From Bimastos eiseni (Eukaryota; Annelida; Clitellata; Crassiclitellata; Lumbricidae), in contig OY365815.1 of NCBI GenBank assembly GCA_959347315.1, positions 11,852,459-11,916,458 on the forward strand: a stretch of DNA of 64,000 nt, given 5' to 3'. Both the position numbers and the translations under genes were made by a program. The notes under the pieces are model-generated. The model saw only the letters and a list, made by a program, of their open reading frames with translations, was not told the origin of the DNA and searched no databases. Of this stretch, positions 32,219 to 63,127 are shown one piece after another (the stretch's first letter is position 1; each line of letters opens with the position of its first letter).

Positions 32219-33649
32219 TGCGTTATTTTATCGTCCATGAAGTACGTTGATGAAAATAATTCGTCTTAGGTGTCTTCTGACAAATGCCTTAAATTCAGTC
32301 GCCATATATGTTTCTAGGTTTTTGTTTTTCTGTCTTTGTTTATTATGTGTATGTATCGAACCACTGTAATCAGACAATTTCAAGTATTTGACATCGATCG
32401 ATGCTGCCGTGTGACCATCTTCAACCATTGTCTCATGATCTTTCATTCCTCGGGCTGTACAAAAATTCTTCCCCAAGTTGCCCCAACTGATCTCCCCCAC
32501 CTTCCAATTGCTGGCCTAAATGACGCCCACCTTAACAGTCACTATTAACCCGCTGCCTCGGGCCCTGCTAACAGGACTATCCATTCTAAAGAACGCTAGC
32601 TCATCGCCTAGCTTCGCTTCTATTTTAACCAACACATTGCCTAGTGAATTGAAAGATTAGTCAACCTTATGGGGTACCTAGAATTGATCGCGCTTCCTGC
32701 TGCTCTCGCGCCAGTGTGTTATTCTGTTCTATTTACGGATTTATAAAGCGCATCTCGCAGTACAACATAATCAGAGGCGCTTCCAGTGCGAAGAAACCCT
32801 AAAGAAAAAAGTCTTAAGAGAACGAGCGGAAACATTTGTGCTACCGCTAGATGAGATTGCAGTACGAGTATCAGCAGGCAGGCTGTCCATAGCGAAGGGC
32901 CAAAAGAGGCATAGGCACGATGCTGAACTGTGGCAATTCTAGACTATTCCATTACTCTACAACCAGAGTCGGCGGCCAAATAGGCAAGGGCAAAATTAAC
33001 TCAGCCTCTGGACACCCGTTCATTGCACATCCATGTTACTAGTATTACGTACAATAATGCTGGTTTATTTCAGAAATTTCAATCTCTTGATAGTAAAGTC
33101 ATTGCACTGGGACCTTATAAGGCCATTCAAACGAATGAGCGGTGGCGATGGATATCACCCGGTCAGACTCTCATTGAAAAATGAGCTGGGTCGAGACCAT
33201 AATTATACGGTCGTTATATAAAATCGTTCACATTTACATTTTGCATAGCGTCGCTAAGCTGCTAACGAAAAGCGCAACACTATCCGATGCTCTGAAAGCA
33301 ATATGTAGTCTATGAATTCGCATCGTAGGGCAGGAAACCTGCGTTGTTTACCACGCATAATATTATGGCTGTTTATGAAAGTACAAATCTTTAAATTAAG
33401 TGCATGTATTTTTAGAAAAGTCAAATAACATGAGAATCACCGCTTTCAGGAAGGTGGATGTTGACCGGTTTTCGGACGAGAGCTACGAAGAGGATCAGGC
33501 GACTGACTATCGGACCTTCAGAGGCAGGTGAGTAGCGAAAGAAGATCCTCAATGAGCTCATGCAGCAAGAGCGTTGGTAGAGGATCGAGCTCGGTAAAAG
33601 TGAATTTTAGTGTATGTTATTATACCATTATTTTATTATTTGACGTGAA

Positions 33650-54512: not shown

Positions 54513-54862
54513 TCAAATAACTGATGAAATTGAAGTAGAATTCTGTATCCTGTAAGCAGCATGATCAGCATCCATCTCCAAAAACTCTTCGTTCGTGTTT
54601 CTAATCGTCGGAGGTTCTGCCCCATCTCTGACGACGATCGTCGTTATATAGCCACCTGTTGCCTCGTATATGTCACTGTACGTCTTCACCTTTGGCGTCG
54701 GATGACGTCGGCAGCGAGACCAGAGCAGCACAGACCCAACGACGGCTGCCAAGACGGCGATGCCAACCGGGAGCCCAATGACAAGACCGAGTTTCAGACT
54801 GTTTGAGGAATCCGATGGGGACGAACTGTCAGGATGCGGTGAAGAGGAAGCAGGAGTCACAG
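54513..54862 (-). CDS. Transmembrane/cytosolic-tail terminal exon, unknown receptor (1)
   Basis: Acceptor ttcattgacag, phase 1. Encodes a Ser/Pro stalk (AVTPASSSPHPDSSSPSDSS), a membrane helix (LGLVIGLPVGIAVLAAVVGS VLLW), a stop-transfer RCRR, and a tail with KVKTYSDIYEATGGY ending SISSVI. YSDI fits the YxxPhi adaptor-binding pattern. Phase and layout match the last exon of the plus-strand lectin gene, so a type I receptor is inferred. No ectodomain exon was recognised upstream, so its family is unknown. Confidence 0.7.
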
Positions 54863-55954
54863 CTGTCAATGAAAAAGCTCATCACGTAAGGAATGTAAAG
54901 GGAGTACGGATAACGAAGCAGCTCGAACCGTCATCGTTATGAATCACTGTCGTCACTGTCGTAAAAACTTCCTGCATATTGGAACTAGTCCTACGGAGAA
55001 AGGGATTGAGAGTGCCTCAACAGGATCCGTCACACGTGTTGGTGTTTACTAATCTCGCAACATCTACTTTAGCTCGGTCGTTCAAGATAGGAACATAAGA
55101 GCGTAGCATTCTTCGGCCTGCTCCTTGTGAAGAGACACGTTGGGTGATTAACCTCCGCGATGCTGCATGGGAGAAGTAGATATTGTCTCGTATTTGAGCG
55201 GTTGTGTTGCAAACCGAGATCTTTGCATTTTAGCTCCAATTGTTTTTCATCTTCGGTCACAACCTGTGCCTCCCAAACTCCCTTCCCAGTGTGAGGTCAA
55301 CCGGAGAAGTCTATCTAAATGAAAGCGGAGACGACATCTCAGCCAGTATAAGCTTGAGTGGATGGGAAAAGAGCAGATAGTGAAGTGTGTTGCTTGCGAT
55401 AAGACAAGCATTGTATTTAAGATTCCATGGTTCAAAGTTAAGTTTTAAAACAGCCGAAAGATGCGAATTCAGAAACTGTTACCTACAGCTAGAGTAACAT
55501 TGGGTCTCTGAAGAGACTGTTTAAGGCATTCGAGAACCCTAATGTGACCAGGACTGAGCCCTCGACAAAGTTATTCAAGACCAATCCCACCTCTCTCGAG
55601 AATGAGTAAGCTGCCTGGCTTTGCATAAGAGTTTACACATTTGACTTAAGTCTGCGTCAATAATAGCCAATGATGATCGAGTTAAGACCCCAGAGCGTTT
55701 GCGCAGGGCGAAAGAGGGTGCCATCAACGCGGGAACCCAGAGGGACAAAAGCCGGCCAACAGCAGATTGACCAGGGTCGTGATTTCCGACAATAACCTGA
55801 GGTCCAAGTCTGTTTGGCCCACCAATTACATGATGAAATTATCATTGTTATTGATTTTGCCTGGGTTAGAAATAATCAATCAGGAACAGAAAATTATCAT
55901 CATCATCGTCATCATTATAATTATCATCATAATTCATCGTAGTTATCACCATCA

Positions 55955-57114: not shown

Positions 57115-57545
57115 TTAACAGGTGGCTGAAGAATGAAGCGGTGCTGAGCCCAATGTGTCCAGATACTGTGAACTAATCTCCGGAGTTGAGGGAGTTGCAG
57201 CGGTCGAGGGCTCTTCATTTCGGACTTTTATATGAGTCACGTAATGCAGAGATCCAGCACTCGACGTTGATGTTCTACTTCCGGTCTGGGAGTCGTGATT
57301 TCCGGTCGGGGACTTCTCATCGATACTCTCGTACAGAGGGTTCGGAGTGGCGTAGGACTCGCGACGTTTCCCCCTTCCGGATGTCTTCTCGTTCCGACCT
57401 CTCCAGATGAAAACAACTCCGGCAACGAATGCACCCAATAAGCACACACCCAGAGTGAGTCCAATGGCGAGACCGAGGGTCGTTGCGCGGTTGGAAGACG
57501 GCAATGGGAATGTTGGGGAAGAGGAGGAGGAGGGTGGAGTCGTTG
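57115..57545 (-). CDS. Transmembrane/cytosolic-tail terminal exon, unknown receptor (2)
   Basis: Acceptor gtgtatgcag, phase 1, stop TAA at 57115-57117. Encodes ATTPPSSSSSPTFPLPSS, a helix (LGLAIGLTLGVCLLGAFVAG VVFIW), RGRNEK, and a long tail with ATPNPLYESID (NPxY) and SSQYLDTLGS. Phase and layout match exon (1), 2.3 kb downstream on the same strand. They could be alternative last exons of one gene or tails of tandem genes. Confidence 0.72.
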
Positions 57546-58899
57546 CTGCATACACAAAACAATGAACCTCCACTACCGATACTTGTCGAAATTCATCAGA
57601 GCTGGGCTTCAATAGCGCTGCCTTACGGATACTCTCAGCCTTACGGATAATTACCAAAATGCACATCATAATATATCTTCCTCAAGTTCATGGACTGGCT
57701 GCCAGTCCGTGCTGGTTGGACGCCTTCCAATTACTAGACTATCCGTGTGATGTCCAACCTGCATGTGTAATCGTCATCAACTACTGCATTGCAAGGCCAA
57801 TCCTTTCCAGGCACACCGATCGGGCTATGCGCTCCGAGCCAAGTCGAGGAATTAATGAAAACGAAACAACACAGCTAGGAGAAGAAACGGTTTAAGCAGG
57901 TCTTATAAATCCAGGGTAATGGATAAAGATGATTAAAAGACGCATTTATCTTTACCCCAATTCCAAATACAGTCTCGCATTGAAGTCTTCTTGTGATCGA
58001 CCAATCCACTTGGAACAAGTCTCCTAACAACAAGCGACATCTGTTCGATGGAGGCTTTGCGGCTGTGTTAGGTCGGGAATGCCTTTGACGAGTCTCTGGT
58101 TGAGTGGCGCTATATAAATTTGCAATCACAACTGTAATACTGATGCACTTGCTGCTATGTAACATTACGCGTAAGAATCGCCTCTAGCCAATACTGCTCA
58201 CCTGCCGATGAGGAGAAGTCAACTGCAGTCGAGCTACATGTATCAATGGAGTTCAGCCAGTAACAGTTGTTGGCTTCGCACAATCTGTAATGAAGATGGT
58301 AAGCGTATTATTAATTTAGATTTCAGAAGACTATATTGCAACAGGTGACTTTTCAAATTCCATACCAGTTATGTAATTAGACTGTGTTATACAACAATGT
58401 ACTAGAGTCATGACAACGGCTGTCAACGGATGACGCAGTCGGGGACGACAAGAGAAGAGATGGAAGGATATGTCAAAGGGACAAGAAGACTCTGAAATTG
58501 AAATAAGACGACACTGGTAACAGAGTCAAGTGGAGAAGAAGGTTCCGTGTGGCTGACCCCTCCACTATGAGGGATTAGTTCTAGCCTAAAGGATATATAT
58601 ATATACATATATATATACAATAATGTACTAGGTCTATGTCATGTTTATGAGCAACAGCAACGCCTCTAGCAGTGGTTTGCGTGCATCGATTGATTTGTCC
58701 AGATGCATAGTGGAGCGTCATCTGAATCTCAAACCCCGCCAATGCTCGCTCTCTGGCAGTGCCAATCCCAAGTCTGGATAAACGAGGAGGGTGACGCTAC
58801 CGATCTTTGCTACCACGCAGTGTCGTTAAACAGAAATTGCCACTACTAAGAGCCTCCATAGTTGATATTAGCCAGCGAGTGAACATGCTCAAATACTCA

Positions 58900-61020
58900 G
58901 TCAAATCGATTCGCGATTCATGCGCAATAACCAACACTTATGCTTTGTACAATCTGACACGTTCAGTTCTTAAATACTCACTGTGGGTATCTGAACGAGG
59001 AACATGGGAGACAGCTCGGTTGACCCAGGAGGCTCTTGTCTGGCGTCACATCCGCTTGGTTCAACAGGGTTGCACTTGGGATGCAAGGCTTCCAGGTCAC
59101 TCTGAAGCATAATTATATAGCACCATCATATAGAACTAATTAAAGAAGCGCAAACGGTATCTGTAATCCAATATTCCTGTAGTGTTAAATTCGCAAGAAT
59201 TGCAACAAAGGTGATTGACGCAAAGATCATCAAGGGAAAGCTTATAATTACATAGTTACATTGAGAAAGACAGACAAGTCAGATACTGGTAATGACAGTC
59301 AAACCGTCACAGAAACATATAAAGAGGTTGTCGTAAAAGTGGAGTGAGAAAGCCGGTATGCTACCAGAATCATAATGACATATTCTTAACTTTTTTTAAT
59401 TGAACAGTGTATATAGAGGCAACCATGGGTATGAAGTGTTATAGACATCATTTCTCTCCCCGTCGGCATAGCAGTTCGGGGTACAAGTCTCACCCCGCCT
59501 GATCGTCCCACTGTCAGTTTTCTCGTTATAGCCAAGTTGGACACAGGTGCAAGTGTGGTCAAAATGTCATGATAAATTTCCGACAGTTCGGCACGCAAGC
59601 CATTAAATTATCGGTAATCCTTCATCGCGTTGCATTGACTCGTATATCATTTGGCTTTATTATGTATTCAATTGCTTACGGATCAATTTGTAAGTCTGAT
59701 AGACAGTTGTCGTAATCGATCAAAAGATTGCAGGGACACTGACATCGGATGCTGGTGGACGTCAGATTATAGGCACAACGATACTTCCCATCGGTCTTAA
59801 AGAATCAACAGAAACACTCGATGGAACAATATCCTGAAACAATGCGTAATATATTGTTGATAAACGATTTAAATATGATGTCTGTTCTTTAATAAAAATT
59901 ATTCCTCGTTTTTAGCCTCGCAATTTCTCAAGAAAGCCGATTTTGGTAAGCCACGTCACACACTACCACCTAGATTTGTACCGATACCAATATGCCCACT
60001 CGTAATCGGTCCGATCATTGGAACAATCGGTTATAATCAGTTTCGGTAACAATAATTGGCGCAGATGCTAAAAAATATTTTTTTTTAGTTTCAGCTGCTC
60101 GCTACTCGACTGTTCGCAATGAAAATCATGTACAACATTCTTGTATTGTACTATCGTATTTATGAATTTTCCACTTCTTATTAGGTAACGGCAATTCAAA
60201 CACTCTGTCCGACTATAGGCAAACACTGTCATAATCTGTGTCAGCAAGTTACTTTGATATCGGTTCAGCTCCATTATCACTTCATGCATTGCTATCACAC
60301 AACAGGTTGTAATCTCTAGATCAAAGATTCAACGAAACCTTCCTCAGCAACTTCTCTGGCCTCAGTGGTAAAACGACTCAGCATTCTACCTTGTAACTCC
60401 ATTTTGGCCTCTTTGGTGGTAGTAGAAACAGTGTTAGTGTTAGTTGTAGTAGAGGTAGCGAAACAGAACAAGGATGGATGAAACTACACTTTATTGTACC
60501 ACTGGGTATGACTTTAAATTATCAGCACAGTTATTTTCATTAGAAACAAGCTTGAACATTGGATAACATCTGGCACAGCACGAAAGTAATTTCCTCTATA
60601 TATTCACCTGTTTTAATGCTACTTACTACTACAACTGCTACACTTACTACTGCTGCTATTGCTATTATTGCTACTACTGCTGCCACTAGAACAACTACAG
60701 CAACTACTACAGTACTTCTACTCGACCACTAATACTACAGCAACCACTTCCCCGCTGTTAATTGGTTAATTGGGGAAATGGAAATCGGGGAACTGAGAAA
60801 CTTTTTTATTTCTGCAGATAAAGTCAATATTTTTACAGATTTGGCATCCTGATATCATGGACATCGCCATGACCTATTTTGCTTTGCAAATTTCTGAGCA
60901 CTATGGAATGTGTTTCTAGGGCGTAAATCGGGGGCCTGCTGTACCATCGCATTGCACCAACCTACGAAGCGAGGTTAAAATTGAATGGAGAACCTGACAT
61001 TTGATCTGAAATCGATGCAG
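58900..61020. other. Intergenic/intronic DNA, one weak exon candidate
   Basis: 59680-59795 (minus) is an open 116-nt block with acceptor ctttaag and donor gtaagc. It reads TDGKYRCAYNLTSTSIRCQC and PCNLLIDYDNC, six cysteines in 38 residues. It could be an ectodomain exon of the downstream minus-strand receptor, but no family was recognised. 60600-60740 is an imperfect (act)n tract. Confidence 0.3.
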
Positions 61021-61023
61021 CTC

Positions 61024-61815
61024 CAGGGATGTGGTCTCGAGACCGCGGTCTTGATCTCGAGACGGTCTCGAGACCGGAAAACTGCGGTCTCGGTCGTTGT
61101 CTCGACTGCGTCGGTCTTGGTCTTGAAGGAACGGTCTTGAGAATGGCGCCGGTCTCTGTCTTAGGTTAGCATTCTTGGTCATTTGCCGTATCAGAACAAT
61201 TTCTTTGATATTTGTCGGTTATTTTAGATTATTAGAGACACCGGATGTTTTGGCCCGACGCGCTTGTTATCGATTTATGACGTGCTGACCATCTATATAA
61301 TTATACAAGTTACTATGGGATAACATGCATTTGCAAGGGCGTTCCAGCCATTTCAAAACTTGCTTTCACAAATTTCTAGGTTTTGGAACAATCAGATAAT
61401 TGTGTGGTCGGCCACGTGTAGTCACTGTTAACCTACAATTCCGAGTACAAGTAGGCCTACAGTTCCTACACCACTCAAACGGAATGTTAACCTATCTGTT
61501 CAAAATTCAGATGTCTTATTTTAACCTATCGTATACTATAAGTAATTTACAGTGTTATATTCTCAGGCCGAAGCCAAGGCTGAACCATTATTTAGGTTAG
61601 TATTCTTCACCAAAAAATAATGTTTTAAGCGTGTTATTCCGTTTTAGCGGAATAGATTGTGAATTGTTTACAACAAGAGTATCGGTCTCGGTCTTGGTCT
61701 CGGTCTCGGACCCTCGGTCTTATTCTTGGTCTCGGACCACCCGGTCTTGGTCTTGGGACTTCTCGGTCCTGGTCTCGGTCTTGGTCTCGAGGTTTTGGTC
61801 TCGTACCCAACGCTG
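61024..61815. mobile_element. hAT-like non-autonomous element, copy 2
   Basis: Ends cagggatgtggtctcgagac and, inverted, cagcgttgggtacgagacc. Flanks tgcagctc and atcagctc agree at six of eight positions, a possible 8-bp target duplication. Interior collinear with 29634-30528. Confidence 0.7.
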
Positions 61816-62299
61816 ATCAGCTCTAGGTCTACCATGTGGATGTAGCAATGCAAACTGGTGATATACCGCCCGTAACAAAATAAACTAGTTACGACGACGG
61901 TGTTCAAGGTGATTATTTTTGAGGATTGCGATGATAATGACATAATGACAATGATGATTATCATCATGTTGATGAACCAAGTATGAAAATAGGCAAGTGA
62001 CTCTTGTCTTTACTTCATTTTTTAAAAATGGCTAATTCTGCAAGCCCTAGCGTGCCACTTAAAATCCACTCAGAGGCAGCATGCGATCCGCGTGCTGGAC
62101 AACACTGCCTTACGGTCTGACACTACCTGTCAAGCTTGTGTTTTGCAATAACTTCGATATTTTGACTGATCAACTTCTAGCCTTTCTCCCTTTGAGCACC
62201 CTAACAAGCAGCCGAAGACCCACCCTGCAGAGATTCCCGAGAAGGAAATGTTACGAACCAGCGCGCCCGGAACGTAGTAGGCCTAAGCTGTTTTATTTT

Positions 62300-62532
62300 T
62301 GTTTTGAATTTCTCCCTCAGTGGTGGGCCACTGGGGAGAATGAGGATACCGTAGCTTCTCCTCATCATCTTAACGCCAACAACGTACTAAAACCAGGGAC
62401 AGCGGATCAGGGATTATCTGATCACCAGCCTAGGCCGAGAGCCAGTAACATCGGCGTCACGCAACCGTACGTGTCAGGTATTAAGCTGACAAGTAAACAC
62501 TTTGATCTTAGCCAAAAGGCCGAGAAGCGATA
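62300..62532 (-). ncRNA. U2 snRNA-like RNA gene lacking the branch-site segment
   Basis: Minus strand from 62532: the first 29 nt (starting atcgcttctcggcctttt) equal the U2 5' end with stem-loop I. Stem-loop IIa follows as gtcag-cttaatac-ctgac; the usual arms are atcag/ctgat, so both sides changed together. The U2 stretch containing GUAGUA that pairs with the intron branch site is missing. Downstream differs from U2: a gatcag/ctgatc hairpin (62418-62438) and a strong ttctccc-cagtgg/ccactg-gggagaa hairpin (62310-62340). No canonical Sm site was found. A tataaaag box lies 22-29 nt upstream of the start. Sea-urchin U2 genes are known to use a TATA box at about this place. The 3' end is a guess. 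Confidence 0.6.
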
Positions 62533-62881
62533 ACGACGTGTTATACAGAGGTCTTTTATAGCATGTCTGGGCATCTAAAAAAAGTTTTCAATGACAAATC
62601 TTACGAACGGTATTAACAATTTAATTCGGTCATTCACAGAAAAGTTACATTGAAATATGAAAGTATACAATATAATGCAATTTATAAGTAGGTCACATGT
62701 CACTATAGCATAATAGAATATAAAATAACTCTGTTTCCCACCTGAGCCTATAGAATCAGTTGTTACCATGTGCCACCATCTAACGACGTCGTGGCGACCA
62801 TAACGCTATAATAATGTTACAGGCCTACTTCTAATTTAACCAACATCGCCGCCTAGTAAAAGAGTCTGGTCAACCTTACCG

Positions 62882-62945
62882 GATATACGGGTTTCGAACT
62901 CGGTTCCTCAGCTATGCGCCCCAATGTTTTATCCATTATCCAGGC
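62882..62945 (-). mobile_element. tRNA-like SINE head
   Basis: Minus strand: cctggataatggataaaac (A-box-like) and gaaccgagttcgaaacccg (B box). Stems do not close as a tRNA, so a SINE relic is favoured. Confidence 0.55.
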
Positions 62946-63127
62946 AGGGAACAGGGCGTGAGCGGAATGAGGAAGGTAAGGGCAACGAGGGATGGAAGGC
63001 TAGAATATCGAACTGGAGAGGACGGTAAGGCGGGCAGAGGTCGGTAATGGGAAGAGTTCAGGAGTGGGTTCTGCTTCGTCTTTACCAGAGGCGTGAGGCA
63101 GAGGGGACATGTGTCCCCGGGCGCCAC

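Follow-up and report, generated by a model that had tools for sequence, protein, structure and literature searches.

The 64,000-nucleotide stretch of Bimastos eiseni DNA analysed here (the window) carries on its minus strand a U2-like segment that very probably belongs to a decayed copy of a dispersed repeat, one that captured a complete U2 gene as DNA, had the middle of that gene changed, spread and then decayed. In this repeat a U2 unit with an external promoter and a 3′ flank rides at about 275 places in the genome. As a claim for a gene the locus is ordinary; as a repeat bearing a U2 transcription unit it is mildly interesting. The parts of the segment and of the repeat around it are collected in Table 1.

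Table 1. Features of the U2-like segment and of the surrounding repeat (window coordinates; offsets are relative to the U2 start).
Feature	Position	Strand	Basis or remark
PSE-like box AAACTTTTTTTA, at -56	62576..62587	-	position measured
TATA box TATAAAA, at -29	62554..62560	-	chance in a 5-nt slot 0.0012
U2 nt 1-32 unchanged (5′ end, stem-loop I)	62500..62531	-	identical to canonical U2 genes L025-L036
Stem-loop IIa, UGUCAG CUUAAUAC CUGACA	62472..62491	-	covariance-model alignment; GUAGUA gone immediately 5′
Diverged middle, covering IIb, the Sm region and additional sequence; no Sm-type site found	62376..62465	-	alignment, folding
SL III-like hairpin remnant	62341..62362	-	family GGGGAGAAG...CTCCGGCTTCTC against canonical GGGAGAAG...CTCCGGCTTCTC
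Terminal hairpin TTCTCCCCAGTGGCCCACCACTGAGGGAGAA	62310..62340	-	counterpart of the CTCCCC...GGGGAG hairpin at the canonical U2 end
A-rich stretch AATTCAAAACAAAAATAAAACAG, in place of the canonical U2 3′ flank, 3′-box-like	62287..62309	-	alignment to canonical 3′ flanks
Window copy of the dispersed repeat	60750..63085	-	blastn against seven other copies; tail matches extend to 60729
Interrupting sequence in the window copy	61031..61812	.	gap between collinear matches
Repeat 3′ terminus CCCCAATTAACCAATTAACAGCGGGG, then a GTAGTAGT-type tail below 60750	60750..60775	-	window sequence; same in other copies

The U2-like segment and its surroundings

When the window was scanned with Rfam at gathering thresholds, the U2 model (RF00004) gave the sole match, at 62531-62409 on the minus strand (51.8 bits against a gathering score of 46, E 2.2e-7), and only its 5′ part aligned well; the scan with the U2 covariance model proposed in the preliminary description of this DNA thus gave a match above the gathering score. 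A U2-like RNA from this locus would start at 62531, beginning with the U2 5′ end. The conserved nt 1-32, which include the start of the U6-pairing region, bear out the earlier claim of an unaltered 5′ end and stem-loop I. With up to 3 mismatches allowed, a 21-mer from this 5′ part (CGGCCTTTTGGCTAAGATCAA) has a single match in the window, and none of 100 shuffles contains one. A self-comparison of the window revealed no second copy of the U2-like part, a result that taken by itself would have pointed to a single-copy gene.

Beyond stem-loop I the likeness to U2 breaks down. The GUAGUA branch-point-pairing segment is absent from the window copy and from the 34 sibling copies aligned with it, as had been described, and the net loss in this region, first put at about 6 nt, came to 7 nt in an alignment with U2 of the same genome. 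A search of 62290-62531 for an Sm-like site turned up nothing beyond T-runs at nt 15 and 140, and the canonical Sm-site sequence ATTTTTGG is aligned to GCTCTCGG. The window copy has in addition two private 9-nt deletions, one after IIa and one in the SL III remnant.

The two hairpins described in the 3′ half were confirmed by folding: together they fold better than shuffled sequences (z -4.7, with 1/500 as good), as does the terminal hairpin alone (z -4.95, 0/500). For nt 67-222, 1/500 shuffles folded as well, while nt 67-160 barely beat theirs (42/500 as good; z -1.5 for a stretch similar to the diverged middle of Table 1). Set alone against the mammalian 3′-box consensus, the A-rich stretch matched at background level.

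Searches for exact patterns of the variant or of its hairpin gave 0 matches in viral or prokaryote collections, and no relatives were found for the antisense 156-aa open reading frame. A generic U2 21-mer had 0 matches in viral contigs; in prokaryote contigs it picked out three U2-bearing MAG contigs, which served as foreign U2 references (including L001 and L002). Elsewhere in the window, two open frames on the minus strand, at 54516-54878 and 57118-57681, contain what looks by eye like a probable transmembrane stretch; the second has one relative, at 53% identity, and the first a weak Pfam match only, under its cut-off.

Copy number, extent and ends of the repeat

In the window's own assembly (660,451,143 bases in 118 contigs), a family-specific 27-mer has 275 matches with at most 3 mismatches, against 0 for the reversed control. 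A 261-bp query returned 693 candidates, of which 40 were scored; all of these match at 86-100% identity over nearly the full query length, 39 of them from the query's first base, which is the start of the TATA box. The copies have ~1.3-2.3 kb in common around the U2-like part. A first sample of 20 was taken with 1.5-kb flanks (L005-L024), and when 20 of the 40 sibling loci were analysed by cmscan, 6 lay above the U2 gathering score (46.1-54.1 bits) and 14 below it.

By blastn against seven copies, the window matches at ~61813-63085 and 60780-61030, with 84.8-91.8% identity, and again at the 3′ end; L005 and L018 match shorter parts of the window copy. The span 62300..62560 given in the preliminary description therefore holds for the U2-like core, within a repeat that runs from ~60750 to 63085. 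The sequence that interrupts the window copy includes GGTCTC/GGTCTT tandem repeats at 61684-61803. Because part of it (61024-61189) recurs beside copy L018 (L018:1-209), this interrupting sequence appears to be repeated itself.

The family has a common 3′ terminus, which in most copies is a palindrome of the CCCCGATTAACCAATTAACAGCGGGG kind with a GTAGTAG-type tail behind it. On the 5′ side the copies stop at graded positions; a module junction lies near -262, at least two modules can be told apart upstream, and the longest form seen starts near -1280, where it adjoins a GTCT-type microsatellite. Two copies were extended 4 kb upstream and their open reading frames of at least 90 aa looked at. 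A stretch of ~109 bp from the repeat's upstream module (window 62828-62932) is 70% similar to window 32617-32722; it holds GAGTTCGAAACCC, which we take to resemble a tRNA-type B box.

A second sample was drawn by a 3′-end probe from L010, which gave 246 candidates, 40 of them listed; ranks 2-22 without L005 yielded 20 loci. All 20 extend at least 259 nt upstream of U2 +1 (in the frame of L010), and the ungapped ones run through the external promoter. The U2-like core is found in 19 of them, being absent from L051 and interrupted or partial in L037, L039, L048, L050 and L055. Target duplications (TSDs) were sought in 17 copies, two of which had no recognised 3′ end, and none of the 15 scanned showed a convincing one; apart from one microsatellite 11-mer, shared words did not exceed 9 nt, at 5′ edges that are approximate. 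The weak direct repeat seen at 62608/62259 was rejected as a TSD, since it lies inside sequence common to the family. LTR-like pairs were looked for by eye among the 40 + 40 places listed, where no two same-strand matches were noticed a few kb apart. In the preliminary description, hundreds of degenerate copies with poly(A) or target duplications were to mark a pseudogene or SINE: the copies do run into the hundreds (275), their tail is of the GTAGTAG type and not poly(A), and target duplications did not emerge from the 15 copies scanned.

Relation to canonical U2 genes and divergence of the copies

The canonical U2 genes of the genome score 182.6-189.6 bits with Rfam U2, and 12 of the 46 scored (L025-L036) were used as the reference set. 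A canonical U2 26-mer has 264 genome matches, 253 of them on one strand (control 0), and among the matches listed all but 11 are on contig 7. These genes form a large tandem array (contig 7, ~20.01-20.38 Mb; L034 and L036) together with dispersed singles (L025-L033 and L035). Throughout the reference set, ~nt 28-40 read GATCAAAGTGTAGTA, which has an additional A compared with GATCAAGTGTAGTA of the Rfam consensus, beside the branch-point-pairing segment; the extra A in GATCAAAG and the loop CAGCTTAAT are both normal for U2 of this genome.

Upstream of the start, 10 of the 12 canonical genes have ACCTKTTTT at -56 or -55, and 8 have a TATA-like box at -30 (TATA in 7, AATA in 1). Both array genes examined (L034, L036) are without these two boxes, which most dispersed genes examined possess. 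In the window copy, AAACTTT stands at -56, in a PSE-like box, and the TATA box claimed in the preliminary description is indeed present (Table 1); these predicted promoter boxes share their register with most canonical genes examined. Across 35 repeat copies (the 40 without L037, L039, L050, L051 and L055), AAACTTT lies within -60..-50 in 26 and TATAAAA within -31..-27 in 30. TATAAAA sits exactly at -29 in 19/20 first-sample copies, the exception being L015, and the exact 32-nt U2 head is kept in 17/39 repeat copies. When the promoter was aligned to that of L028, the score of 38 was reached by 2/2000 window segments and by 2/2000 shuffles. For L028-L030 and L032, 0 of 1000 background segments reach the score, compared with 4-71 of 1000 for L025-L027, L033 and L035 and 443-474 of 1000 for L031, L034 and L036. 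Judged by sequence, the promoter likeness is clear for only some of the canonical U2 genes.

The 3′ half, which had been thought new, turned out not to be wholly so: from +67 to its end the family majority aligns with a score of 78.5, reached by 0/2000 window segments. The part from +157 to the end scores 68.5 (0/2000), while +67..+156 is weak (37.0, reached by 71/2000 window segments and 189/2000 shuffles). These alignments suggest that SL III (GGAGAAG...CTCCGGCTTCTC), the A-rich 3′ flank and the terminal CTCCCC...GGGAG hairpin were inherited, and that the middle diverged or was replaced. Alignments of the 3′ half to the foreign U2 of L001 and to the Rfam consensus did not reach significance, and on the sense strand a U2 3′-domain model built on L001, L002 and that consensus scored no more than 1.1 bits at the locus. 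The repeat thus has in common with canonical U2 genes the first 32 nt, the -56 box and a TATA near -30 (for most dispersed genes examined), as well as the SL III sequence, the terminal hairpin and the A-rich 3′ flank. It differs from them in that GUAGUA, the Sm site, IIb and SL IV are lost or unrecognisable in the repeat copy, and in that its U2 part is embedded in a dispersed repeat.

Divergence among copies was measured on 14 of the 20 loci found by the 3′ probe, leaving aside L037, L039, L048, L050, L051 and L055, in which the core is interrupted or missing. Relative to the majority, the U2-like part has 4.1% substitutions, against 5.6% for -60..-1 and 5.1% for the downstream part. For upstream sequence the range is 2.0-7.1% in 12 copies; the other two, which fail to align there, give 43% and 58%. 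Copy by copy, promoter and U2 part together are slightly less diverged than the downstream part (paired Wilcoxon p 0.025), in a sample ranked by the downstream part, a bias that opposes lower divergence on the U2 side. In an alignment of 35 rows (the window, 20 copies of the first sample and 14 of the second), just one pair of an 82-pair structure is changed on both sides, where shuffles gave a mean of 1.0, and 95.7% of cells pair, the same as in shuffles. The paired change in stem-loop IIa, which had been read as a sign of selection on RNA structure, fares no better, as the pair is G.U in 32/35 rows and G-C in 3 (the window and two others), the family majority being GUCAG/CUGAU; a ‘compensatory’ change in one lone sequence can mislead. 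Taken together, the decay of the copies is much the same within the U2 part as beyond it, and selection on RNA structure is not supported.

Probable capture of a U2 gene, rival readings and known mobile elements

In the simplest mechanism, a dispersed repeat, apparently non-coding and non-autonomous, would have picked up, as DNA, an entire U2 snRNA gene, probably one of the dispersed type, from the promoter with its PSE-like box and TATA through the RNA and its terminal hairpin to the 3′ flank. We infer capture as DNA because the promoter sits upstream of +1 and is absent from a U2 transcript. The middle of the U2 gene would then have been altered in the founder lineage, with GUAGUA and the Sm site lost and IIb and ~90 nt diverged or replaced, before the repeat reached its ~275 detectable places, where the copies would have decayed as wholes. 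At most, the putative U2-type promoter of a copy would yield a short U2-like RNA. Lacking both GUAGUA and an Sm site, such an RNA would be unable to assemble into a U2 snRNP.

A counterpoint to this account is the contrast between a middle that can hardly be recognised and the preserved first 32 nt, TATA box and 3′ end, a pattern not accounted for by uniform neutral change in the founders. The kept ends may have come about through selection on the founders for an snRNA-type transcript; canonical U2 genes may have converted them, or the middle may simply have been replaced. The kept ends favour a further reading, on balance unlikely, in which the repeat uses the captured unit: selection in the founders would have preserved the U2 promoter, the 3′-end signal and the first 32 nt, and an snRNA-type transcript would have aided the element via transcription, nuclear stability, or as a decoy for U6 or U2 proteins. 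The register of the promoter boxes shared with canonical U2 genes speaks for such use, as does the family majority, which folds compactly into several hairpins at -90.9 kcal/mol with SL I and IIa constrained (-96.5 unconstrained). However, conservation of the core among copies goes little beyond the slight difference noted above, there is no covariation, and since the copies start elsewhere than at +1, the copied unit is not initiated by the U2 promoter. Moreover, an RNA ended by a functional 3′ box would be expected to stop ~800 nt short of the repeat's end. We consider it quite improbable that the repeat acts, or acted until recently, as a mobile vehicle for a functional snRNA-type transcription unit, with many copies that have a U2 promoter making U2-like RNA that lacks both Sm site and GUAGUA; if it were true, this Sm-less RNA, in keeping its U6-pairing 5′ end, could titrate U6 or serve the life cycle of the element.

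The preliminary description had itself offered three readings. One was the founder of a U2-headed SINE (of the SINEU type), in which RNA from U2 +1 is copied by a LINE. This would fit the kept U2 5′ end and the fixed 3′ end with its microsatellite-type tail and graded 5′ ends, but it is very unlikely, because RNA from +1 cannot carry the promoter and could not yield copies that extend upstream, as all 20 of the 3′-selected copies do, by at least 259 nt; the lack of a convincing TSD in the 15 copies scanned also counts against it. Nor is the window locus itself, in all likelihood bordering on certainty, a functional repurposed U2 paralogue, since the TATA box, stem-loop I and strong hairpins that suggested one are features of the whole family, and the window copy has its private 9-nt deletions, an interrupted repeat and no Sm site. 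The chimeric pseudogene came closest of the three, in the form of a degenerate U2 gene multiplied inside a repeat. For the repeat with a captured U2 gene, the interest depends on expression: if young copies are transcribed, they would be a natural experiment on the dispersal of snRNA promoters and on Sm-less U2-like RNA, and if they are not, they are a caution that covariance-model matches to snRNAs in animal genomes may be repeat-borne pseudogenes.

To our knowledge, mobile elements that involve snRNA genes are known mainly as snRNA-headed SINEs or as insertions into snRNA genes, and a search of titles and abstract openings in the literature found no description of a U2 gene with its promoter inside a dispersed repeat. 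SINEU is reportedly the subject of Kojima 2015. Like the snRNA-headed SINEs (SINEU), the repeat has an snRNA-derived part within a dispersed element; it differs from them in that the U2 unit is internal and comes with its own external promoter and 3′ flank. SINEs with an snRNA-derived part are also cited in passages of PMC5753468 and PMC7245038. Utopia and Keno are described in the relevant passages of PMC4640811 as non-LTR retrotransposons that insert in U2 genes. The target-like sequences given there, TGTAGTATCTG and TCTGTTCTT, fall in the U2 stretch that is lost here; a difference is that the deletion here has U2-derived sequence on both sides, and no such element was noticed at the site. 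Among the foreign references, the symbiont-MAG contig L002 holds at 1663-1850 on the minus strand a U2 3′ fragment that runs from AGTATCTGTTC with an A-rich stretch before it, an arrangement like the junction at which Keno or Utopia has inserted into the U2 gene of a host.

For the carrier itself, the fixed 3′ end, the tail and the graded 5′ ends point to a retroposon, whereas the palindrome, the GTCT microsatellite, the absence of a convincing TSD in the copies scanned and the promoter above +1 recall Helentron-type elements, as outlined in part of PMC4067079. The repeat differs from the Helentron-associated elements sketched in that source in its graded 5′ ends and in the microsatellite-like tail past the palindrome, and subterminal inverted repeats were not found in it: between the 5′ region of one long copy, whose 5′ end is approximate, and the 3′ end, the best inverted match scored 16, which 579/1000 shuffles reach. 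With these same elements (HINE, DINE-1; PMC4067079, in the portions that treat their structure), the repeat has in common a 3′-terminal palindrome and a GTCT-type microsatellite near the 5′ end of the long copies looked at; no coding frame was noticed in it, and the 15 copies scanned, with their approximate 5′ edges, showed no convincing TSD.
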